In this document: piece after piece, positions 11,244-47,176 of the stretch
Position numbering within the stretch: the stretch's first letter is position 1
Layout of the letters: each line of letters starts with the position of its first letter
Origin: an uncultured Bacilli bacterium
GTDB lineage: Bacteria; Bacillota_I; Bacilli_A; RFN20; CAG-449
DNA length: 64,000 bases
Assembly (NCBI GenBank): GCA_947588815.1
Contig: CANQAG010000002.1
Coordinates: 1-64,000, forward strand
Reading direction: 5' to 3'
Notes under the pieces: generated by a model
What the model was told of the DNA's origin: nothing
Seen by the model: the letters and a program-made list of their open reading frames with translations, nothing else
The model's database searches: none
Program-made: the position numbers and the translations under genes

Positions 11244-13034
11244 TTATTCGACATGGGGAGAAGTTCTATCTAAATCATATGCATCAATCCACATACGATA
11301 TTCAACATCATCATCCGATCCCATGTTAAATGGTGAAGTAAATCTTACAACGATATTATCTTTTTGATAGACATATCTCATATCACCATCAGTATCTTCA
11401 AATTCTTTAACAAATTCAAATCCGGCAGCAACAAGAAGTTCACCATATTCTTCAGCAAAGGTAGCCACACCATCTTCTTTAATATAAGCGATAGCAAATA
11501 CACCTTCGGCGATTGTTTCTTCATCAACGATGATACCGCTATCTTCATACATGATATTCCATCCATCAAAAGAAACCGGTTCAGGAATTTCCATACCTAA
11601 AACATCCATACATAAAGAGCCAAATGTCATCGAGCGAGAGAAAGTACTCGTTTCTCCAACATAGACAACAGGACCATTTTCCCATTTGAAAGTAAGATTT
11701 CCAAAGTCGATAGAATCACCACTTGCAATTCCTTCTTCATCGACAAAATCAAGATAAGCTTGTTTCATTTCTTCATCTAATCCTTCAGAGAATTTTACAT
11801 CTATCGGAGTCGAACTATTTATTTGACATTTTAATGAGGAAGCACCACTAGTAGTAACTTCTCCTTCGATGTAAGTTAAAGATAAGTTAATAGACATACC
11901 ATTCATTTTTGAACCATTGTAACTATCAGCAAATTCTTCTTCCCAAGTACTAACGTCAAAAATTTCATATGGTTCAATTTCCATTTCATCACCAATTGAA
12001 ACTAATTCAGCGTCTTTAAATACTACTGCGCCATTTTCGACATCAACCGTACCTTTTACGGTTATTTCTTTAGAGTAATTTGACCATGGATCAAGTACAC
12101 TAGCATCTGGGAAGTAGGTAGGAACACCATCACTGATGACTGTAGCGGAATTTCCCATATCAAGAATTGATGATAAAATACCGGTAAATTCTATTTCCAC
12201 ACCCTCATATAGTGCGTTACCTTCTTCACCTACTCTTAATAACATATAAAGCTCAGGATCTTTAATGTCCATTTCACCATTTGCGTATTCATGAACATAA
12301 TCGATTCTAGAAGTACCAATATCTCCTACAGTAATTCTATAAAAAACATTATCTTTCGGTATGCTAAGGATACCACCATCTAACATATCTGGATTAAAGC
12401 CCAAAAACTTGATTTGATCTAAACTTAAATCTTCATTTAGACTTATATCAATACCACCATGAGCATGACCAAAGTAATATGCAAGTGGGTGATTGGTTAA
12501 GTTTAGTAATCTTTGAATTGAGAATTCATCGTCAGTGTGGAAAGTCAACTTATCTTTAGTTTTAACAAAAGTATCAAGATTTAAAACATGGTCCAAATCT
12601 TTCATATAAGAAAGATGTAGCGGAAGATAATCTTCGCGACCATAATCATCAAATCCATCCCATTCGTTTGTAGCAAACTCCGGATAATATAAGTATGAAT
12701 GAACAGTGTCATTATCATTTGATACTTTCATATATCCGGAAATTTGTCCTGAATCCATAAAGGTTCCAAAATAGTTTTCGGAAACGACAGTTTTTCCAGT
12801 ACTTCCATCGTAACTGACACTATTAAGAGTATAGTTCTTTCCAAGTGATTCAATTGCCGTTTTTAAATCTTCAAGTGTAGCATTTGTTGTTTTTGAATCT
12901 TCAGTACTAGCACTAACTTCACTTGTTGTTTCATCTGCATTAGAAGATGAACTTGTTTTATCATTACTATTGTCACAAGCCGCCAACAATAAGAATGATG
13001 TAGCAATAATAAGAAGTGTCTTTGATCTTTTCAT
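11244..13034 (-). CDS. Secreted lipoprotein, unknown function
   Basis: LLIIATSFLLLAAC lipobox, Ser/Thr linker; C-terminal module shared with the 27576 and 32181 lipoproteins. Confidence 0.7.
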   Translation of the reverse strand: MKRSKTLLIIATSFLLLAACDNSNDKTSSSSNADETTSEVSASTEDSKTTNATLEDLKTAIESLGKNYTLNSVSYDGSTGKTVVSENYFGTFMDSGQISGYMKVSNDNDTVHSYLYYPEFATNEWDGFDDYGREDYLPLHLSYMKDLDHVLNLDTFVKTKDKLTFHTDDEFSIQRLLNLTNHPLAYYFGHAHGGIDISLNEDLSLDQIKFLGFNPDMLDGGILSIPKDNVFYRITVGDIGTSRIDYVHEYANGEMDIKDPELYMLLRVGEEGNALYEGVEIEFTGILSSILDMGNSATVISDGVPTYFPDASVLDPWSNYSKEITVKGTVDVENGAVVFKDAELVSIGDEMEIEPYEIFDVSTWEEEFADSYNGSKMNGMSINLSLTYIEGEVTTSGASSLKCQINSSTPIDVKFSEGLDEEMKQAYLDFVDEEGIASGDSIDFGNLTFKWENGPVVYVGETSTFSRSMTFGSLCMDVLGMEIPEPVSFDGWNIMYEDSGIIVDEETIAEGVFAIAYIKEDGVATFAEEYGELLVAAGFEFVKEFEDTDGDMRYVYQKDNIVVRFTSPFNMGSDDDVEYRMWIDAYDLDRTSPHVE

Positions 13035-13325
13035 AACAATTACCTCTTTCTTTTTGTTTTTATAAATATAAAATAAAAAATTCGAAAATAGAAGAATTTT
13101 TTTATATACGTGAATAATTATTCTTAAAATTAGGAATTTAATGGTAATAAAAAGCCAAAAATAGCTTTTAAATAATTATAATGATATTTAAAATGAGTTT
13201 CTAATTTAGCATTTAAACAATGATTATCAAATATAAATTCAAAATTATTTAATCTGCAAATTTAGAAAATACCCTTTCTATCTTCATTAGAATGGACGAT
13301 CATCAGTGTGAGCAAAATTCAACTT

Positions 13326-14135
13326 TTATTTTTTTAAATCGCAGTGAAATTTTTCAGAAAAATATGTTACTGAAATAGTATCCATAATCGCCAAAGTATA
13401 GGTAACTAAAGGTAAAATAATTATTAAGCTAAGTATTGCGCCAAAAATGGCAAAAGAAGCCAATACAACAACTCCTAAGCACATCAAAATAACGATAAAA
13501 CTCAGCAATAACGACACTACATTTCTTAAGTTTAAAAATCGTTTAAGTGGTTGTTGACGAAAATAAAGAAGCCATGTAGCGAAAAGATTTTCACAAATCA
13601 TCGCAAGAATCGCCATCAAGATTAAAGGAATTATTCCTAATTTCCAAAAGCTAGCCACTAGTGCATATAAGCAAAGAAAAAGTGAAATAGAAATAATTCT
13701 TAGCACAAAGGTTCCCCAAAAATTAGAGGAACGAATTTTTGGTAAATCATCACGAATTACTTTTTTACAAAGATAAGTCGCATAAGTAATGCTTAAAGAT
13801 AAAAATAAGATACCGATTAATACAATTATCACAAATATAACGATAAATTGACTGGTGTTGATATAAATGATTTGAAATATCTCTTTTAATAACACCGAAA
13901 AAGCTGATAAATCAATTAGTGTTTTTGATGGATTATTACTAAAGAATACCGTTACTTGCTCGTTTATTTCCGTAATCGCTTCTTGTGAAAGCGACTTAAT
14001 CAAACAAATTAAAATTCCACCGAGCGAATTAACGATAATCAAAAAGCTTAAATATATAACTCCACAGGTTGTAAAGAAACCTTTACCATTCGTAAAAAAT
14101 GCTTTGATAGATTTTCTAATCATAATTAAGTTCAA
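13326..14135 (-). CDS. Multi-TM membrane protein
   Basis: At least 5 hydrophobic segments; no recognised catalytic motif. Confidence 0.6.
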   Translation of the reverse strand: MNLIMIRKSIKAFFTNGKGFFTTCGVIYLSFLIIVNSLGGILICLIKSLSQEAITEINEQVTVFFSNNPSKTLIDLSAFSVLLKEIFQIIYINTSQFIVIFVIIVLIGILFLSLSITYATYLCKKVIRDDLPKIRSSNFWGTFVLRIISISLFLCLYALVASFWKLGIIPLILMAILAMICENLFATWLLYFRQQPLKRFLNLRNVVSLLLSFIVILMCLGVVVLASFAIFGAILSLIIILPLVTYTLAIMDTISVTYFSEKFHCDLKK

Positions 14136-33210: not shown

Positions 33211-33763
33211 TTTCTAATTCAATTGGAGTTCCTTCAAGATAGAGATAAGTTTCATTTATGATGGTCGCATTAGGATCATCAAGTACTTCGAGAGAATAAT
33301 TACCATAATTATCCCAAAATTCAATGATACACTCTTCATCGTCAGTTGCGACAAACGTAAAATAACCATTGCTTTCAGTATGATTATAATTTATCGCAGG
33401 ATTTGCACTTGCTTTACGAATTAAAGATAAAGAAACATTATCTTCATATACATTTGTTAAAGTAATGGCATCATCTGCTATTGCTAAAGTAAAATCACTC
33501 GAAGCAATATCATAACCATTATATGTTCCTAAAATAGATTGCCACTTAGCATCCCCTTTAATTTCATCCTCTGTTTTTTCACTGGATGTTGGAGTTTCTG
33601 AAACACTTGAAGAATCAAATGGATTAAATTCTAAACTGTTCTTTGAATCAATTAATTCTCCTTGTATGCTTTGTGATGAACTTTCAACACTTGCAATTTG
33701 TGTTTCTTGACATGAGATTAATAATAGACCTAATAGACTAAATAAGATGATGCGTTTTTTCAT
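33200..33763 (-). CDS. Small lipoprotein, last gene of MoxR/VWA operon
   Basis: ILFSLLGLLLISC lipobox; overlaps upstream VWA gene by 4 nt. Confidence 0.7.
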   Translation of the reverse strand: MKKRIILFSLLGLLLISCQETQIASVESSSQSIQGELIDSKNSLEFNPFDSSSVSETPTSSEKTEDEIKGDAKWQSILGTYNGYDIASSDFTLAIADDAITLTNVYEDNVSLSLIRKASANPAINYNHTESNGYFTFVATDDEECIIEFWDNYGNYSLEVLDDPNATIINETYLYLEGTPIELEKAA

Positions 33764-36348
33764 TTTCTTTTTCTCCTTCTTAAGGCTTTTAAATCGCTAA
33801 AGCGTAATTTACGAATCATGATATCTACGATAAATAAGATTACTATGACTAAGATTAGATATAAACTAATACTATCGTAGAATCGTGAACTTGCTTCATC
33901 ATAAGAGATGACATAATCATAATCTAACGCGACAATTCCGTTTTCACCGACAATTTGATATAAAAGTTCTTCGTCGGTAGAATGAAAATAATCATATTCT
34001 TTTGAGTAAGAAAAGTCAAAATATTTCGTATCACGATATGTATTTTCCCCATTATGGTAAATTAAATCTAAAGTATATAAACCAATTTGCTCTACGCTAA
34101 AGCTCATTTGATATGTAGTAACTTCATTTCTAAAGTATTTAGCTTCTTCTTTTGTGCCATCCGGATGAGTTAAAATGACCTCTAAATAGGCATTATTATT
34201 TAATAAATCAAGATTTATCGTACAATCGGCGCTATAGCCATTCGTGGATATTTCTACATCATAAATGGTCGATACTCTTTCACTCGGTTCTAGATAATGA
34301 ACCATATTATTTAATAACGCCCTTCCTCCAGAAGAGATGTATAGATCGCTTGCCCAAGAAGAATTTAAATCACTCGTAAAGGACATCACTTTACCCTTTC
34401 CAAAATTCCAGTAGGCTAATAAAGGAACTTCACGTTCACCACCTAGATCATTTGTATAAGTGACTGTATAAATCGTTGAGGCACTTCCTTTAATTCTTGA
34501 AAAGTTGTATCCATGAATAGAAGGTAAATTAGTCACATTTTCCATCAAAGGATCATTTTGATACTTATTATGAATTTCAAAAGTACCCTCAACACGCGTA
34601 TTGGTGATTTCATCCGCGACAGATTGTAAGATGACATCGACGATATCTTCACTTTGATTGATATAATAATAAGTTCCATTTCCCTCATTTGCTAAAGTGG
34701 ATAATAAGGCGTCTCCCTCTCTTGAGGAAATATTCAAGAAAGAACACGCAATATTATTTCTTGTCATATTGCTTACAGCCATGATTAAAGCATTGGGATC
34801 ATCCGCGGGTAAACCGTCGGATAAGACAATGACATTCTTTGTTTCGAAATTTGCATTGCGGAGTTGCGAATCTGCTTCTAATAAACCTCCACGCATATTT
34901 GTAGCGCTCGATGTTTGAATGTTATTGATTGCATTAATAATTTGTTCTCTATTTCTTGCACTTGTAAGGGGTTGAATAACATTGGTTTTGTCTCCAAAAG
35001 TGATCACAGTAACATAATCTTGTTCCCCTAGTAAATCTAAACAAGCAATCGCGCCTTCTTTAGCCTTTTGTAAACGATTTTGCTCATCCATTGATGAAGA
35101 GGCGTCAATGACTAAAGCGACGCATTTTGTATCATTTGTTTCAAATTGCACCGGTAACATATTGTTATATTTAGACATCGTTTCAGAACTGGTACCGGAA
35201 GCATAAGTTGTGCCATATGTGACTAAAGATTTTCCATAAGTCGCCACAACTTTTTCTAAATTCGTTACTAATTCTTCATGATGCGGTAAACCCACAATAT
35301 TTGCATTTGCAAATACAAATTCATCGTATTTACATAAATCTTCAAGAAGATAAGGAGTTTCCTCACGATTAAAGAAAGGATCAATCACACAATTTTCATT
35401 ATAAAGAGAAGCAATGGTATTGCAATCTGAATATTTATCTCCGACAATCATCACTTTATATTCATCTACAACTTCTTGAACAAAATATTTAATATTATTT
35501 CTTTCGTCATCTTGTTCATTTCCTTTTACTTCAAGATAATAAGAATGATTTCCCTTAGTTTCCGTATTTAAAGCAAACTCAATGATATTAATTCCCTTCA
35601 TTAAGCTTAAATTTTTTGTTTCTTTTACTTTATCATCTTCATAGAGGGTACATGGAACTTGCATTTGATTTCCTGCTTGAATAGAAGCTTTTACCGTTTC
35701 ATTTCGATCGATATAAGTTTTATTAATATAATCTAAACTATTAATTTGGACATCATAATCATGAACTTCATGATCTAAATAGATAGCGTCGACTTGAATA
35801 TTTTTGCTTTGAATATCGACCATGGCTCTTAAAACATGATTATCTGTTTCCCCGCCATCGGAGATGAGAATCATCTTTTTAAAGACATTATCATGATACA
35901 AAGTAGAGGTATATTGAATGGCACTTTCAATATTCGTCGCACTTTTATCTACACTAGATTCTTTAACACTTCTTAAAGCGCTGCCTAAAGGAGATAATAG
36001 TTCGTAATTTTTAGCAAAGGTTACAACACCCATCGAAGAATGATTATCTAAATGAGCATAAATCTTTTGAATTTGTTCATCGATTTTATCTAGTTCATCG
36101 TTATTGGATTCGGAAACATCGGCAAGAACATAGACTTCACTATCTTCATTGGACTTCAAAAAGGAAACGTCGACACACGCGGTAGTGATAAGTAAAGCAA
36201 TAAGCAGATGAATGATTAAGGAGATAATATTCTTAGGACTCTTCTTTCCTGCTTTCATACGAATAAAGGGCACTAAGATAAGCGCTAATAAGGGAATAAT
36301 TAATAAAAACAACCACGGATGGGCAAATTTAATATTGTTCATGAGCAT
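33760..36348 (-). CDS. Membrane protein with VWA domains (BatA/GATase-like architecture)
   Basis: VYVLADVSESNNDELD and ALVIDASSSMDEQNRLQKAKEGA (MIDAS); N- and C-terminal TMs. Confidence 0.8.
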   Translation of the reverse strand: MLMNNIKFAHPWLFLLIIPLLALILVPFIRMKAGKKSPKNIISLIIHLLIALLITTACVDVSFLKSNEDSEVYVLADVSESNNDELDKIDEQIQKIYAHLDNHSSMGVVTFAKNYELLSPLGSALRSVKESSVDKSATNIESAIQYTSTLYHDNVFKKMILISDGGETDNHVLRAMVDIQSKNIQVDAIYLDHEVHDYDVQINSLDYINKTYIDRNETVKASIQAGNQMQVPCTLYEDDKVKETKNLSLMKGINIIEFALNTETKGNHSYYLEVKGNEQDDERNNIKYFVQEVVDEYKVMIVGDKYSDCNTIASLYNENCVIDPFFNREETPYLLEDLCKYDEFVFANANIVGLPHHEELVTNLEKVVATYGKSLVTYGTTYASGTSSETMSKYNNMLPVQFETNDTKCVALVIDASSSMDEQNRLQKAKEGAIACLDLLGEQDYVTVITFGDKTNVIQPLTSARNREQIINAINNIQTSSATNMRGGLLEADSQLRNANFETKNVIVLSDGLPADDPNALIMAVSNMTRNNIACSFLNISSREGDALLSTLANEGNGTYYYINQSEDIVDVILQSVADEITNTRVEGTFEIHNKYQNDPLMENVTNLPSIHGYNFSRIKGSASTIYTVTYTNDLGGEREVPLLAYWNFGKGKVMSFTSDLNSSWASDLYISSGGRALLNNMVHYLEPSERVSTIYDVEISTNGYSADCTINLDLLNNNAYLEVILTHPDGTKEEAKYFRNEVTTYQMSFSVEQIGLYTLDLIYHNGENTYRDTKYFDFSYSKEYDYFHSTDEELLYQIVGENGIVALDYDYVISYDEASSRFYDSISLYLILVIVILFIVDIMIRKLRFSDLKALRRRKRK

Positions 36349-38158
36349 ACACCATCCAATCTAAAATAAAGAAAATAGCCCCAAGAAGAACAATGATCAT
36401 CAATTGATCGACAATCGAGGTATTTTTTATAATATTCGCATTTTCAACAAGGGCAAAAGAAGCGTCTTTTGTCACAGTGACATAACCTTCATCTTTAGAA
36501 AATCCAACATAAATAGGATAAGTTCTGGTTTCATTTTGTGAAGTGATTTGTATCTTATAAGTACCTACTTCTTTTAAACGATAATATTCAATATTTGAAT
36601 TAAAGGAAATATATTTTACATCTTCAGAAGGAGTCGTAATTCGCGCGCTTTCAAATCCTGAAGAGACATTGATTTGTAAATCATCTCCCGCGACATAATT
36701 TTTATCCTCAATAGGACTTGGTAAAGAATAATTTAATAAATTTCTCATCAAAGGAATAAAATCATATAGAATCGGTAGGTCACTATCATCAAGTGCAAAA
36801 GAGAAAACGACTTCTCTAGCGTTATCTTCTGTAGTACCGACAAATAATAAAGGAACAGAATCATAACTTAAAATCGTAGTAAAGGGTTCGTATAAACTAT
36901 ATTTATAATATTGATATAGCATCATTTGATTTTGATGAGTTCCTTCTGTGATTTGTCTATATAAAGGACTATCCTCTCTTTGATAACGGACACTATAAGA
37001 AGGCGAAGAAACGCGATGATCTTGAACTAAAAATCCTGAATGATCGACATTTTGATCAATATTGATAAACCAAACAGAACTATTTTCCGGTAATCTAGAT
37101 GGAGTATAACTATCAAAGATATATAAATCATATTCCCCTTCAACATAGGCTTCCGGGGCTATGATATCTAAATCATAAATTCCTATCGCGCGAATCATCG
37201 CTTGAATATAGAATGGAGACTTACTCACCAAAGCAATCTTTGATTTGTTCTTGTTCGTCAAAGGATAATAAGAATCTTCATTATCTAAAGCTAAACTATC
37301 TTCATTATTAATTTTAACACTTGCTTTTTCATATGTTCTTTTTACGACATCAAATTGGAAAGGAGTTTCGATATCTTTTAAAACGCTAATTTCTTGACTT
37401 CTTAATTCATTATCATCGAGTAATAAAGATAAAGATAATGTAGTATCTTCTTCGTAAGATAAAACATTTCCCTCAAAGATAAGACGATTGTTTTCTTCTT
37501 TAACCGAAAGATCATAAATCGCATAATTTTGTTCATGATTAGATAAATTCACCCATTCAACATTATCAATATGGGTATATGTTTTATCAGTATAAACGAT
37601 TAATTTAGATATCTCGCCATTTTGATAATAAGAAAGTGCAGTATCTAAAGCATCATCAAGTTCAATATAAGAATCTTCGGGAGTTAAGCGATTGCTTAAT
37701 TGATAAAAGATGTCTTTATCTTTAGCTCTTTTAGCAATAGTTTGAGACTCACTTCCGGCATAAATTAAAGTATACGTACTTCCTATTAAAGAAGAAGAAA
37801 CTGTGGAATTTATTTGTTCTTTTGCCTTTTCAAATCGAGATTTCCCATCTTGTGCAATATTCATACTTCCCGAAGCATCTAAAATAAAACAAATATTCTC
37901 GGCTTGATCAGGAAGATAAAAGACAGGATGAGCTAAAGAAATCGATAAGAATAATACCGCGATAATTTCAAAGATTAAACTTAATAAGCCTTCAAAACGA
38001 CGTAGAATCTTCTTTCTTTTTAAGAATTTTTCACTTAATTCAAATAAATAAGAAGAAGATACAATATGCTCTTTATATCGATTTCTTATAATGTAGATAA
38101 TGATTAAGATCGGTATTCCAATTAAACCTAATAAACCCCATGGATATAGAAAACTCAT
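36329..38158 (-). CDS. BatA-like VWA membrane protein
   Basis: FLYPWGLLGLIGIPILIIIYIIR N-terminus; FILDASGSMNIAQDGKSRFEKAKEQI MIDAS. Confidence 0.85.
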   Translation of the reverse strand: MSFLYPWGLLGLIGIPILIIIYIIRNRYKEHIVSSSYLFELSEKFLKRKKILRRFEGLLSLIFEIIAVLFLSISLAHPVFYLPDQAENICFILDASGSMNIAQDGKSRFEKAKEQINSTVSSSLIGSTYTLIYAGSESQTIAKRAKDKDIFYQLSNRLTPEDSYIELDDALDTALSYYQNGEISKLIVYTDKTYTHIDNVEWVNLSNHEQNYAIYDLSVKEENNRLIFEGNVLSYEEDTTLSLSLLLDDNELRSQEISVLKDIETPFQFDVVKRTYEKASVKINNEDSLALDNEDSYYPLTNKNKSKIALVSKSPFYIQAMIRAIGIYDLDIIAPEAYVEGEYDLYIFDSYTPSRLPENSSVWFINIDQNVDHSGFLVQDHRVSSPSYSVRYQREDSPLYRQITEGTHQNQMMLYQYYKYSLYEPFTTILSYDSVPLLFVGTTEDNAREVVFSFALDDSDLPILYDFIPLMRNLLNYSLPSPIEDKNYVAGDDLQINVSSGFESARITTPSEDVKYISFNSNIEYYRLKEVGTYKIQITSQNETRTYPIYVGFSKDEGYVTVTKDASFALVENANIIKNTSIVDQLMIIVLLGAIFFILDWMVYAHEQY

Positions 38159-39030
38159 TTTACAATCTCCATAGACATGAAGTCTTTAAAAAATACATCT
38201 TGCAAAGAACGCTCGACAGGAATTAATAAATATTTAGCATCCCGTATTTCACAATAATTTTTAATTCTATTTGTGACATACTTTACGGCTTCTTGATAAG
38301 CCTCTAAAACATTTTGTGTGATATTGTTTTTATAATATCGTTCATTATTTTCGCTATCGTAAAGAATCACTTTTCCCCTTTTCGAAGGATTTAATTCTTC
38401 TTGAGAAAGAACTTGTAAACATAAAACATCTCTTCTTTTTTCACGAAGGTGATCAATGGAATATTCATAAGGTAAGTCTGTGAGGAAATCAGAAATGATG
38501 ATCGAATTTCCATCCCCATATCCCACATTTGATTTTAGGATGGCTTCCAAAAGATTACTTTCTCCTTTAAACTCCACTTCATTTAATCTATTGATATAGT
38601 TTAAATACGAATCTTTTCCTACGACATTTTCCATGATGCCATATAATTGATTTTCTTGAACATAATAAATCGATACTTTGTCCATGTATTTGATAGATAA
38701 ATAAGCAAGTGACGCGGCAAGTTCTAACGCTCTTATGCCTTTAGAAAAATAGCCCATCGACGCTGAGGCATCAATATAGATCTTTGTATGTAATTGTCTT
38801 TCATCTAAAAACAGCTTTAAAAAGAGATTATCGGTACGCGCAAAAACACTCCAGTCGATTTTACTGACATCATCTCCAGGAATATATTCCCTATAATCAG
38901 CGAATTCTACTGAGGAACCATAACTTTTTGTCTTATGATTTCCTCCAAATCTTCCTTGAATGATATCGTGTATTGATAACTGCAGTAATTCGATTTGCTC
39001 TAAAAATTGATCATCGATAATCTGCTTCAT
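38155..39030 (-). CDS. DUF58 domain protein
   Basis: GNHKTKSYGSSVEFADYREYIPGDDVSKIDWSVFARTDNLFLKLF signature; VWA-like C-terminus. Confidence 0.92.
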   Translation of the reverse strand: MKQIIDDQFLEQIELLQLSIHDIIQGRFGGNHKTKSYGSSVEFADYREYIPGDDVSKIDWSVFARTDNLFLKLFLDERQLHTKIYIDASASMGYFSKGIRALELAASLAYLSIKYMDKVSIYYVQENQLYGIMENVVGKDSYLNYINRLNEVEFKGESNLLEAILKSNVGYGDGNSIIISDFLTDLPYEYSIDHLREKRRDVLCLQVLSQEELNPSKRGKVILYDSENNERYYKNNITQNVLEAYQEAVKYVTNRIKNYCEIRDAKYLLIPVERSLQDVFFKDFMSMEIVK

Positions 39031-39032
39031 AA

Positions 39033-40016
39033 TTAATGACCTTTTTTATTCTCTTGGATTAATAAAGAAATCACCTCATCACAAGATAGATGTTCATTAA
39101 TCGCATTGTAGTTAATCTTAATACGATGCCTTAATATAGGATAACAAAGAGCGTCGATATCTTCATAACTTACATTAAATCTTCCTTCGATTAAGGCTCT
39201 GATTTTTGCCGTGGTAATTAAAGCTTGACCCGCGCGAGGGGACGCACCATAACGGATATATTTTTTTGCCACTTCTGAAGTATCTTTTAATTCAGGGTGA
39301 CTAGAAGAAACTAGTTTCATGGCATATGTAACAATTTCAGGAAGAACCGGGACGTCTTTTGCTAATGCCCTCATTGCTAAAATGGTTGGTCCATCGATAA
39401 TTTTCGTCGCAACTTCATCCATCGTAACTTGTGTCATATTGACGATGTTTTCAAGCTCTTCATTGCTAGGAAATTCCATGACTAATTTAAACATGAAGCG
39501 GTCCATTTGGGCTTCCGGTAAAGGATAAGTACCATCTTGTTCGATGGGGTTTTCTGTTGCCATAACAAAGAAGGGTTCATCAATTTTATAAGTTTGATTT
39601 GAAACCGTGACACTATGCTCTTGCATGACTTCGAGTAAAGCAGATTGTGTTTTAGGGGTTGCTCTATTGATTTCATCGGCAAGAATTAAATTTGCAAAGA
39701 TGGGTCCTTTTTGGAATCTTGTATTGAGTTTTCCTTGTTCATCTTTTTCGATGATATTCATACCGATTAAATCTGATGGCATTAAATCTGGCGTAAATTG
39801 AATTCTTGAAAAAGGTAAACTTAAAGTTTGACTTAAAGAACGAACTAGACGTGTTTTACCAACGCCTGGAACACCTTCAAGAAGAACATTACCTCCTGCA
39901 AGAATCGCAATAATGACATTATCGATTACCTCTTCTTGACCGACGACATCCTTATGGACTTCTTCTTTGATCTTTTTGACTAATGTTGCAAATTCACTGA
40001 TTTCTAATTTTTTCAT
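39033..40016 (-). CDS. MoxR family AAA+ ATPase
   Basis: LLEGVPGVGKTRLV, IQFTPDLMPSDLIG, LADEINRATPKTQSALLEVMQE, ATENPIEQDGTYPLPEAQMDRF. Confidence 0.95.
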   Translation of the reverse strand: MKKLEISEFATLVKKIKEEVHKDVVGQEEVIDNVIIAILAGGNVLLEGVPGVGKTRLVRSLSQTLSLPFSRIQFTPDLMPSDLIGMNIIEKDEQGKLNTRFQKGPIFANLILADEINRATPKTQSALLEVMQEHSVTVSNQTYKIDEPFFVMATENPIEQDGTYPLPEAQMDRFMFKLVMEFPSNEELENIVNMTQVTMDEVATKIIDGPTILAMRALAKDVPVLPEIVTYAMKLVSSSHPELKDTSEVAKKYIRYGASPRAGQALITTAKIRALIEGRFNVSYEDIDALCYPILRHRIKINYNAINEHLSCDEVISLLIQENKKGH

Positions 40017-40954
40017 AGCATTCTCCTTTTTATCGCCATTTGTGGCTCACTATTTCCTTCGTTATTTTTACTTTGATCATATAATGATTTAAAGTAATCA
40101 TCTAGAATATCTTCAAGATCATCGGGGATATTTCCTTGTATTTCACCTTCGACGATTTGATTATAATAATCATCCAGAACATCGCCAAGTTCTGTAAATC
40201 CGTCTTTAGTAAAGACATGACCATCGCCATATTGGGTTTCTCCATCTCCGCTTTGTATGGAATTTGAAGAATCCGAGTTTTGGCTTGCACTATCGATATC
40301 TCCTGAATCGATTTCACTGGTTTCTCCGGATTCTACACTAGTTAAATCTCCGCTTTCAATTCCTGAATCGCTTCCTTGTTCTCCACCTTGCATTGAAGTT
40401 GACTCACTGGTCACTAAGCTTGTATCGATGGAGCTTGAATCAAGTGAACTATTCGAGCTAAGATCTTCTCTAAAAGGGGAATTAGGATTTAAAGGAATGA
40501 AAAAAGATCCTCCAACAATTAAAAGTGCTATAACTAAAGAAATATAATAACCAATAGGAATCACAATAGGTAATTCTTTAGTATCGCAATTCAGTAAAGA
40601 TAGCTTTGTATCTTCTTTTTGCTTAATTAAAATTTCATTGTCATTTGATGGATATTCTACCATCGTTTGAGTTTTTTCTTTTAAATGGTATGTTTCATCT
40701 AATCTTTTAGCAATGCTTTTTTCATCTGGCTGATGATTAAAATATACTAAGCAGACAAATATAATAGAAGCACCTAAGAAAATCAAAATATAAAAGATAA
40801 AGAATAAATCAATACCGATTAATTTAAAGGCACCAAAAATAAGAGCAGTAAAAATAGCGCCGAGAGAAATCCCTAATATCAGTGCTTTAATTAAATGTTC
40901 GAGTAAAATTTTCTTGCTAAACTTTTTAAATTCTTCTTTCATATCCACTTTCAA
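40013..40954 (-). CDS. Membrane protein with acidic Ser/Gly-rich extracytoplasmic linker, first gene of MoxR operon
   Basis: Three hydrophobic segments then SSLDSSSIDTSLVTSESTSMQGGEQGSDSG linker. Confidence 0.6.
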   Translation of the reverse strand: MKVDMKEEFKKFSKKILLEHLIKALILGISLGAIFTALIFGAFKLIGIDLFFIFYILIFLGASIIFVCLVYFNHQPDEKSIAKRLDETYHLKEKTQTMVEYPSNDNEILIKQKEDTKLSLLNCDTKELPIVIPIGYYISLVIALLIVGGSFFIPLNPNSPFREDLSSNSSLDSSSIDTSLVTSESTSMQGGEQGSDSGIESGDLTSVESGETSEIDSGDIDSASQNSDSSNSIQSGDGETQYGDGHVFTKDGFTELGDVLDDYYNQIVEGEIQGNIPDDLEDILDDYFKSLYDQSKNNEGNSEPQMAIKRRML

Positions 40955-42987: not shown

Positions 42988-43278
42988 AAAAAGATAACTA
43001 TATTCTATTGTTTTCCATAATTCTATTTCTCGTTATTTTTGTATAAAATTTATAAATTCCATAATTTAATACTTTTTATATTAACATTTTATTTGCTTTA
43101 TGTATTGCTTACATAGTAGATAATGTTATATAAGATACTGAATTTGACATATGTATTGTCAATATGCATTATTGGTTTTAATTGATTTTTTATTATTGAT
43201 AAACTATAATTACTATACAAAAATTAGCAGCAATAATTAGTGCAGTTTGAATATAGCATAAAACAATGAGGTAGATTT

Positions 43279-45825
43279 ATGGATGAACCTGAAGTATTTA
43301 TTTCATATCATGGAGATAGTCATGGCCAAAGTTCCTATGAAATGGCTGAACGGCTAAAGGAATTTTTAGAAACTCACCCAGGTAGGTCATTCAAATGTTT
43401 TTTATGTAGAAGAGAAAATAGTGATGATTTTTATGATGCAATTAATCATGCTTTAAACGTTACCGAACATTTTATTTTGGTTGCATGTGATAAAAATGGA
43501 CTATCTGATTGGGTTTCTGACGAGTTAAAACAATTTGATGGTTTACGCAAAACAGGTAAAAAAACTAATGCTTTGATAAATGCTTATATTTATGGCAATA
43601 TTCAATTAGATGATTTAATTTCTTTTAATACAGTTTTTTCTACAAAAGATATCGCAAGCGGAAGTAATGGATTTGAAAAACTTTACAATATGCTTATTAA
43701 ACGTAGTACATCTAATGAACGAGTGCTATCTTTTAATGCTGAATATAAATTTCATAATATAGTGTCTTTATGCCCCTTGTCATTTAGATTTAATGAAACC
43801 ATCAAAAATATTTTTCTTTCGGAAAAATTTGTCAATGTTGAAACTGATTTAGTTATGCGACGTATTATGGATGACATTACTGTTTTTGAGTGTTACATTT
43901 CTAAACAATTTGTAGAAAATATTCTAACACAAGGAGATTTATTAGTTTTACAAGTTCAAAATCCAACTGTCGTTGCTGAATATATAGTACAATGCACAAA
44001 AATGTACCATGTGCTAGCTTTATTATTTGATTATAATATAGATAATGTAAATATTATTACTGATGGCAAAATTATACCTGTGCCATCACTTAAGGATATT
44101 AGTTTTGCTTTTTATGATACTATTATTGCAATAAATAAGAATTATGAATATACCTTAGGAAATATCACATTTACAGCGAATGATATATCGTTTAAATTAC
44201 CAAAACACCCATTAAATGAATATGGTGAAATTAATTATTTTACCCGCAAAATAGGATTTGATGAATGGGAAACAAAAAAATGTAATATGTCTAACGCAAA
44301 GTTTTGCATATTTCTTCTTACTTCTTGTTATGAAAACATTGTACCAAAAGGCACTAAAGCTAGCGAAGAACTTGCTGATCAATTAGATTTTTGTAAAATT
44401 GAAATACCTGATGTTGAAGATTCTATCGTAGATACAGAAAAATTTTTAATCGAACAACATAACTTAAGTCTTAATAGAAATGAGTATTTATTAGACAAAT
44501 ACTACAAAAACATCAAAAGTGGATTAGATATGAAGGAAGAAGTTAAGGAATTACTTTCATCTAAATATAATGCTATAGCATATCTAATTCGTGATTACTA
44601 TGACAAGCATTCTTCGGAAATCTTTTCGAATATATTTAGCAAGTTGATAGAGTTTAAAAATTTCGAGAAAAATCAAGGGTCAATATCTCGTTACATGTAC
44701 TTATTGATTTTTATTTTTCAAATATACATACATAATATATACAGCGTTAAATTGGATGATGTTGATGAAATGGAGCTCTTTGAGGAAATTAAGTCTATTT
44801 ATCGCAATGAATATGTTCGCGAGTATCGTTTAAATTTATTTGCTCTTATTTGCTCATTCCAAAAGGAATTACTTTTTGGCGGCAAATTAGGTATCGGAAA
44901 TGTATATCGACAAGAAGTGCATCGAATACTTAATGACTTTGAAACATGTATTTGTAATATGACCCAAAGTTCTGACACAATTCAAGATAATAAATTTAAA
45001 GATAGCCTTTTGCTACTTTATCGTGAACGAGCTGTAATTTGGGAACAGTGTGGCGATAGTTCTATTTCTCACGAAGACAGAATAGCCTACTATAATCGAT
45101 GGAAATTAGATTGTGAAAAAGCTATAGAAATTTCCAAGCATTTTAGTTGCGATAAAGAGGTATTGGGTTGCGTATATCTAAATCTCGCCTCTTCTCTAAA
45201 TAGACTTTCCCGCGAAGAAAAAGATCCACGAACTACTTTAATGGATTGTCTTAAAAATCTCGACATGGCTATGGAATTATTTAAAACTAGTGTAAATGAT
45301 AGAAATATAGCTTATGCTTACTTGCATAAGAGTGATTGTTACGAAGCTTTACTTAAACTAGACGCTGCTAATGAATATTTTGAATTTAGTAAATTTGCAC
45401 CTCTTGCAAAAGAAATATGGCAAAATTCAGCGCGAGCAATGAATCTTTTTAAAGACACAGATGATAATGTTGCTAAATGTTGGGCACTTAGATTATCTAT
45501 TAAAGGTAAACTTTTTATGTCATCTGAAGCAAATACTTGCGACAATTTGCGTTGGAGTCTTAAATCCATAAATAAAGCATTCCACTACTGCCATGCAAGT
45601 AATTATGTTAATGGTATGGCTGAATGTGTAATGGATTTAACCATATACATTAATATTATTCGCCATTTCAATTTAACATCAGAACTTTTAGAAGAAATCA
45701 AATCTACTTTTTTTGACGAAATGGCAACATTCACATCTTTACTTAAAATGTTAGAACTGAATGGTGAAGATATTTACAATTTACAAAAACAAACTGAAAA
45801 ATTAGTTTCTAAACTTATTAAATAG
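43279..45825 (+). CDS. TIR-domain protein with TPR-like C-terminal region
   Basis: PEVFISYHGDSHGQSSYEMAERLKEFLE (betaA/alphaA), SDWVSDELKQF (candidate catalytic Glu), helical repeats in the C-terminal ~250 aa. Confidence 0.8.
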   Translation: MDEPEVFISYHGDSHGQSSYEMAERLKEFLETHPGRSFKCFLCRRENSDDFYDAINHALNVTEHFILVACDKNGLSDWVSDELKQFDGLRKTGKKTNALINAYIYGNIQLDDLISFNTVFSTKDIASGSNGFEKLYNMLIKRSTSNERVLSFNAEYKFHNIVSLCPLSFRFNETIKNIFLSEKFVNVETDLVMRRIMDDITVFECYISKQFVENILTQGDLLVLQVQNPTVVAEYIVQCTKMYHVLALLFDYNIDNVNIITDGKIIPVPSLKDISFAFYDTIIAINKNYEYTLGNITFTANDISFKLPKHPLNEYGEINYFTRKIGFDEWETKKCNMSNAKFCIFLLTSCYENIVPKGTKASEELADQLDFCKIEIPDVEDSIVDTEKFLIEQHNLSLNRNEYLLDKYYKNIKSGLDMKEEVKELLSSKYNAIAYLIRDYYDKHSSEIFSNIFSKLIEFKNFEKNQGSISRYMYLLIFIFQIYIHNIYSVKLDDVDEMELFEEIKSIYRNEYVREYRLNLFALICSFQKELLFGGKLGIGNVYRQEVHRILNDFETCICNMTQSSDTIQDNKFKDSLLLLYRERAVIWEQCGDSSISHEDRIAYYNRWKLDCEKAIEISKHFSCDKEVLGCVYLNLASSLNRLSREEKDPRTTLMDCLKNLDMAMELFKTSVNDRNIAYAYLHKSDCYEALLKLDAANEYFEFSKFAPLAKEIWQNSARAMNLFKDTDDNVAKCWALRLSIKGKLFMSSEANTCDNLRWSLKSINKAFHYCHASNYVNGMAECVMDLTIYINIIRHFNLTSELLEEIKSTFFDEMATFTSLLKMLELNGEDIYNLQKQTEKLVSKLIK

Positions 45826-45846
45826 ATTGGAGGATTTAATAAAAAT

Positions 45847-47013
45847 ATGTTTGATACGATTAAAGATTATTTAATTAAAAATAATATAGATGCATGGGTT
45901 ATTTATGATTTTGCATCGACAAATCCAGCATTTACAAAATTAGTTGGCAATGCTTTTAGCACACGCAAATGTTTTTTGGTTTTGGATAGGCAAAGTAAAA
46001 TTTTAATTTGCCATATCATTGATAAACCAGCATTGCAAAAATTAGTAGACAAATCATTTATATTTAAAACATTTCGCACTTGGAAAGAAATGGATTACAT
46101 ATTACAAGATACGATGAGCACATACAAATGTGTAATGATGGAAATTAGTGATAATGGCTTAATGCCTCGCTCATCCTATGTTGATTATGGAACAGTTTGT
46201 TCAATTAAGCGTTTTGTTAATGAAATTGTTTCTTCGGCAGATATGTTTCAAAAACTTACTGCTCCCTTTTCAGGAAAATCACTTGATTCTCATATTAAAG
46301 CGGCAAAAATCGTTAACGAAATAAAAAATGAAGCTTTTAAAAAAATTTCTACTGATATAAAATTGCATGGATATTCAGATGAATATGAAATTCAACAATA
46401 TATTTTGAAAAAATTTACTGAAAATGATATGGTTACAGATAGTTCTCCAATTGTTGCAATAGGAAAAAATGCAAGTAGTCCACATTACGAACCATCTACA
46501 AATGTTCACTCCCGTATTACAAAGGGAGATCTAGTATTGATTGATTTGTGGGCAAAGTTTAATGGCACTGATAATGTATTTGCAGATATTACTTGGATGG
46601 GTTTTGTTGGTAACGTAATTCCAAAACAAATTCAACATGTATTTAATGTTGTAAAAAAAGCTATTGATCTAGCTTTAGAATTTTTAGAAGAAGAACTACC
46701 TAAACGTCGTGTGTGTGGTTACGAAGTAGATGATATTTGCAATAATTACATTACCTCACAAGGATTCGGTGATTTTATTGTACACCGCACTGGCCATAGC
46801 ATTTCTTTAGGTGAAAGTGACCATGGTATTGGTGTAAACATTGATAATTTTGAGACGCATGATACTCGCGAAATAATCAATAATATTGCTTTTTCTCTTG
46901 AACCAGCAATTTATATGCCTGAATTTGGTTTACGTGAGGAAATAAATGTATATATAGATAATAAACATCCTATTGTTTACACACCTAGGCAAAAAAAGAT
47001 TGTTCTATTGTAA
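45847..47013 (+). CDS. M24 family metallopeptidase (prolidase/creatinase fold)
   Basis: Creatinase-like N domain; GDLVLIDLWAKFNGTDNVFADITW (two Asp ligands), VHRTGHSISLGE (His), FSLEPAIY and LREEINVYI (two Glu ligands). Confidence 0.88.
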   Translation: MFDTIKDYLIKNNIDAWVIYDFASTNPAFTKLVGNAFSTRKCFLVLDRQSKILICHIIDKPALQKLVDKSFIFKTFRTWKEMDYILQDTMSTYKCVMMEISDNGLMPRSSYVDYGTVCSIKRFVNEIVSSADMFQKLTAPFSGKSLDSHIKAAKIVNEIKNEAFKKISTDIKLHGYSDEYEIQQYILKKFTENDMVTDSSPIVAIGKNASSPHYEPSTNVHSRITKGDLVLIDLWAKFNGTDNVFADITWMGFVGNVIPKQIQHVFNVVKKAIDLALEFLEEELPKRRVCGYEVDDICNNYITSQGFGDFIVHRTGHSISLGESDHGIGVNIDNFETHDTREIINNIAFSLEPAIYMPEFGLREEINVYIDNKHPIVYTPRQKKIVLL

Positions 47014-47176
47014 TACTTGCAAACTAATAAAATGTACTTACGATATTTCACAATAAGCTATTGAAATTTTTATAATTACAATGAAATATAAAGTTTTTAA
47101 GTTTTAAAGATTTAAGTTTTTAATTTTTTATAAGAATTTTGATGCAACGTAGATTTTATTTATATATCTCAATATT

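Follow-up and report, generated by a model that had tools for sequence, protein, structure and literature searches.

TIR proteins are common to bacterial, plant and animal immunity, and their activation is a leading open question. In the 64,000 nt of DNA from an uncultured Bacilli bacterium analyzed here (the window), a gene for a TIR-like protein is followed by a gene for an M24-type peptidase, which raises the question whether the two genes form an immune system and what role a peptidase would have in it.

Architecture of the two encoded proteins

The pair is flanked by typA and a metal P-type ATPase gene. This position, the two ORFs, the 21 nt gap and the ribosome-binding site of gene 2, all given in the initial annotation, were borne out by the ORF list and the sequence (Table 1). 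The higher AT content than that of typA also held, with GC contents of 0.29-0.31 versus 0.42 and GC3 values of 0.19-0.20 versus 0.37, although a few other genes of the window equal the pair in AT-richness. Two candidate sigma-70 promoters (TTGACA-17-CATTAT and TTGATT-17-TATAAT) were found 5’ of gene 1, where the count of sigma-70-like sites is no higher than in shuffled DNA. Elsewhere in the window (33760-40954), an operon encodes a MoxR-type ATPase, a DUF58-like protein and two vWA-membrane proteins, one member having a low GC3.

Table 1. Features of the TIR-TPR/M24 locus in window coordinates.
Feature	Position	Strand	Basis
Accessory segment	42993..47174	.	blastn vs sister genome G164
Candidate sigma-70 promoters 5’ of gene 1	43144..43210	+	sequence
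Gene 1, TIR-TPR protein P0001, 848 aa	43279..45825	+	ORF; full-length Borkfalkia homologue, 48%
TIR domain, P0001 residues 1-145	43279..43713	+	Pfam TIR_2; predicted TIR-like beta-alpha order; weak Foldseek SPARTA matches
Codon of E82, predicted catalytic Glu of W78xxxE82	43522..43524	+	invariant in three subfamily members; SARM1 register
Fast-evolving middle region, residues 151-565, candidate sensor	43729..44973	+	identity to Borkfalkia 30% then 43%
C-terminal TPR solenoid, residues 566-848	44974..45822	+	AlphaFold, Foldseek
Gene 2 ribosome-binding site ttggagg	45827..45833	+	sequence
Gene 2, M24 X-Pro-type metallopeptidase P0002, 388 aa	45847..47013	+	Pfam, alignments

Residues 6-105 of P0001 match the Pfam profile TIR_2 (PF13676) with E=4.5e-5, which is under the gathering score. 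All three members of its TIR subfamily match this profile (best E=5e-7), and the relative P0006 of genome G736 scores above the gathering score; on the basis of the match across the domain we assign P0001 to PF13676. The W78xxxE82 motif is unchanged in an alignment of the three members. Residues 560-643 of SARM1 pair with positions 2-84 of the TIR profile in a weak alignment (E 1.7), and by arithmetic this places E642, the catalytic residue of SARM1, on E82. P0001 thus has the WxxxE motif with its Glu at the SARM1 E642 position that is expected of a TIR NADase, in a register taken from this weak alignment. The TIR-like N-terminus with a catalytic Glu position, as initially proposed, is therefore supported, and the domain is predicted to cleave NAD+. 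Similarly, in SpbK, Y188 and E192, which are four residues apart, are modelled at the NAD+ site (PMC12847820). An AlphaFold model of the TIR domain alone partly sustained the proposed fold: it has a TIR-like beta-alpha order and its best Foldseek PDB matches are SPARTA (TIR-APAZ) chains, which are weak (E 0.01-0.03, prob 0.85-0.97), whereas the model confidence is low (pLDDT 56.5, pTM 0.61).

P0006 (L015, 5938-8850) shares its TIR domain with P0001 at 52% identity over 139 aa, followed by a middle read as STAND-like from its degenerate P-loop, and ends in an HD_3 domain (E 4e-24). This TIR head thus occurs with more than one kind of enzymatic partner, a fused HD hydrolase in P0006 in contrast to a TPR tail and a separate M24 protein in the case of P0001. 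Fragments of another TIR/NTPase gene lie alongside P0006 in an apparently degraded immune cluster. The window’s own genome encodes two further TIR proteins, apparently fused to a methyltransferase (L062, 6987-8282) and to a GNAT acetyltransferase domain (L063, 4113-5237), with their C-terminal parts read from sequence.

The AlphaFold model of full-length P0001 was built on two sequences and is usable for the TPR part only, with a pLDDT of about 70-89 over about residues 600-770. The modelled C-terminus matches the TPRs of LGN/Pins (Foldseek, E about 2e-4). This alpha-solenoid of TPR-like helix pairs identifies P0001 as a TPR protein on AlphaFold and Foldseek evidence, with no Pfam TPR match, and agrees with the helical C-terminus described at the outset. 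No recognized fold was obtained from this model for the middle region. Identity to the Borkfalkia homologue described below amounts to 67% in the TIR domain, 30% in residues 151-400, 43% in residues 401-565 and 57% in the TPR part, so that the middle evolves fastest while TIR and TPR are conserved. With output domain and binding solenoid conserved and the middle variable, P0001 would follow a layout that is common among sensor-effector immune proteins.

P0002 matches Pfam M24 (E=6.7e-31), its closest solved structure is the Xaa-Pro dipeptidase 5xev (E 2.3e-54 with a two-sequence profile), and alignments showed all five metal ligands, D233, D247, H317, E352 and E365, to be present. This confirms the suggested prolidase/creatinase-fold peptidase as an M24 X-Pro peptidase, having both the fold and the ligands D, D, H, E, E. 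Since all expected ligands are retained, catalysis is predicted, and the enzyme looks catalytically complete. P0002 keeps the length and plain architecture of its single-gene M24 relatives, with no added domain, including nucleotide-sensing ones. Similarity to 5xev and other M24 X-Pro peptidases extends over the full length; unlike P0002, these have no known TIR neighbour.

Recurrence and accessory status of the pair

Among about 1,400 genomes and in one wider scan for TIR-TPR homologues, one other full-length homologue of P0001 was detected; it is 48% identical and comes from Ca. Borkfalkia avistercoris, a member of the class Clostridia. There, the TIR-TPR gene (L001, 9983-12538) is followed after 15 nt by an M24 gene (12554-13726) whose product is 66% identical to P0002 overall (58% and 70% by part), and the pair is located between deoC and hrcA, a site unrelated to that in the window. 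Gene order is the same in both pairs, with gaps of 15-21 nt, and the predicted catalytic residues of TIR and M24 are retained across this deep divergence. Both hosts are gut bacteria, mutually distant. In the samples of the window’s class and family and of the class, family and phylum of Borkfalkia, these are the only two full-length TIR-TPR proteins, and an M24 gene adjoins both. That the pair recurs in a second class, and at a site unrelated to the first, indicates a pairing beyond chance and implies that the two proteins probably act together. The GC3 of the Borkfalkia pair (0.71) is in line with that of its host, suggesting that the two copies separated long ago. Co-occurrence of the homologues, the check suggested at the outset, was found in two classes, but in two genomes only and with neither locus in a defence island; both TIR-TPR genes neighbour an M24 gene, while M24 genes of the wider family usually stand singly.

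Neither tblastn of P0001 against plasmids and phages nor IMG/VR viral-contig scans with P0001, A1, A2 and A3 revealed relatives of the pair. P0002 matched only distant M24 proteins on plasmids, the two best in other contexts, and other TIR matches (L009, L010, L012 and L013) have different architectures and lack an M24 gene.

The sister genome G164 of the same genus is collinear with the window up to position 42992 and from position 47175, with flanks of about 97% nucleotide identity in blastn, and has an unrelated 324-aa gene in place of the pair. This gene (L038, 10608-11582) encodes an N-terminal membrane segment, and the typA/ATPase junction is a variable site. Of 29 other loci from the Borkfalkia genus, about 10 have deoC close to hrcA (roughly 0.2-1.2 kb) and lack the pair; none of the 29 has a TIR or M24 gene in the examined flank. 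The pair is an accessory unit at both sites. A vertically inherited core operon was rejected, as G164 and the Borkfalkia relatives lack the pair at the site. The segment borders showed neither att-like sites nor repeats or ends of transposons, and no defence island surrounds the pair at the window or Borkfalkia site, the segment itself being accessory. Horizontal movement of the module, as part of the joint best explanation, is put forward tentatively. In Borkfalkia, a Mob/Pre-like relaxase gene, as read from sequence (L001, 19581-20618), follows the pair some 6 kb further downstream and is a possible mobile neighbour.

TIR biology and this accessory behaviour together suggest a function in defence, most likely against viruses. 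The lack of defence neighbours, the TIR-methyltransferase and TIR-GNAT proteins of the same genome and the location of M24 relatives next to peptide transporter and metabolic genes would also suit a regulatory or peptide-signalling TIR-TPR protein outside defence, with the M24 enzyme processing a peptide for signalling or nutrition; as the wider M24 family consists mostly of stand-alone housekeeping genes, the peptidase could be nutritional. We consider this unlikely, since the patchy distribution, the absence at the site in a ~97% identical genome, the fast-evolving middle and the sister TIR-STAND protein fit an immune module better.

Origin of the peptidase and its proposed role

In searches of 472 genomes with an M24 profile, strong matches outside the pair were single genes, which adjoin pyruvate kinase in Clostridia and sugar-metabolism and Hsp20-type genes (functions read from sequence) in the window’s order. 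The two M24 proteins of the pairs and one orphan form their own clade (support 99/98). Their position as a clade within a mostly single-gene family implies that the peptidase was probably recruited from housekeeping M24 enzymes. The orphan is a frameshifted pseudogene with no TIR gene beside it. Its locus (L045, 1-9452, genome G467) is a restriction-modification-type island, in which a double type II adenine methyltransferase and a gene of GmrSD type are its neighbours; a protein of 613 aa that weakly matches CARF-HEPN is also encoded nearby. Thus, this M24 clade can exist without TIR. TIR-TPR without M24 was not seen (n=2), whereas M24 without TIR was (n=1), an asymmetry that, with numbers of two and one, weakly hints at the direction expected for a toxin and its antidote.

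On our best reading, the pair is a new variant within TIR-based immunity, probably directed against phage, whose TIR enzyme is under the control of a recruited proline peptidase. Gene 1 would unite sensor and effector in one chain: its TIR domain would cleave NAD+ or produce a signal of the ADP-ribose kind, the middle region probably senses the trigger, and the TPR solenoid would bind a peptide or protein partner. Gene 2 would encode a proline-specific exopeptidase, most likely acting on the TIR protein as antidote or gatekeeper, either by removing or trimming a peptide that the TPR groove recognizes or through binding to the TIR protein. Infection would release the TIR enzyme, and the cell would stop or die; we infer both phage as the trigger and the direction of peptidase control. 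Since TIR-TPR was kept beside a proline peptidase in both classes, a switch under peptide control is suggested. The narrower version, in which the exopeptidase destroys, trims or makes the peptide ligand of the TIR-TPR NADase and thereby sets its state, and peptide turnover is guarded against phage, is doubtful in these particulars.

To the whole explanation, a mobile two-gene immune module composed of a TIR-TPR sensor-effector and an M24 regulator, we assign a probability of roughly 0.4. It is favored by conservation of the pair at 48% and 66% in the same order at unrelated sites in two classes, by relatives without the pair at both sites, by the well-supported M24 clade and the retained candidate catalytic residues of both enzymes, by the variable middle and the likeness of the TPRs to peptide-binding LGN, and by the TIR subfamily also heading a TIR-STAND-HD protein and an orphan M24 among restriction-modification-type genes. 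Against it stand the two complete pairs on which the asymmetry rests, the missing defence island, the absence from phages, plasmids and viral contigs, and the low-confidence TIR model.

The M24 enzyme might instead be the executioner, activated by a TIR-made ADP-ribose signal. Joining TIR to a protease within an operon is an established principle: in type IV Thoeris, the TIR signal N7-cADPR activates a caspase-like protease (PMC12847820, citing Rousset 2025). P0002 is also predicted to be active. However, the plain architecture and length shared with single-gene relatives, with no nucleotide-sensing domain, speak against an executioner gated by a signal and favor a regulatory action on gene 1 or a peptide; moreover, toxicity of X-Pro exopeptidases is not obvious and gene 1 already resembles a sensor and effector, which makes this alternative improbable. 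A TIR gene acting alone with M24 as passenger, in line with the usually solitary M24 genes of the family and the orphan pseudogene in the clade, is likewise a poor candidate, given that the same M24 clade accompanies TIR despite divergence to 48%, at two unrelated sites and with intact catalytic residues.

Comparison with known systems

PADLOC called no system at the pair and neither did NCBIfam, in which ThcB4 reached 13.5 bits versus a cut-off of 220. The combination that defines Thoeris, a Thoeris-type TIR with ThsA or a type IV caspase-like protease, was not found, and membership of the pair in Thoeris was rejected on the PADLOC and ThcB4 results and because no such effector adjoins it. 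No paper describing a system of TIR and M24 peptidase was found in the open-access literature, so the claim of an undescribed pairing stands with respect to PADLOC and the literature searched. In view of these results we class the pair within TIR-based immunity, as a new variant with a predicted function.

SpbK, SPARTA TIR-APAZ and Swarozyc DUF4062 are abortive immune proteins with a TIR or TIR-like effector that cleaves NAD+, as is predicted for the pair; they differ from the pair in their sensor regions, and no M24 partner was found for them in the descriptions consulted. Type IV Thoeris (PMC12847820) resembles the pair in that one operon encodes both a TIR enzyme and a protease. There, N7-cADPR activates the protease, which is caspase-like, whereas the pair combines an M24 X-Pro metallo-exopeptidase with a TIR protein that carries its own TPR tail. 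If our reading is true, the pairing of TIR with proteases extends beyond caspase-like proteases.
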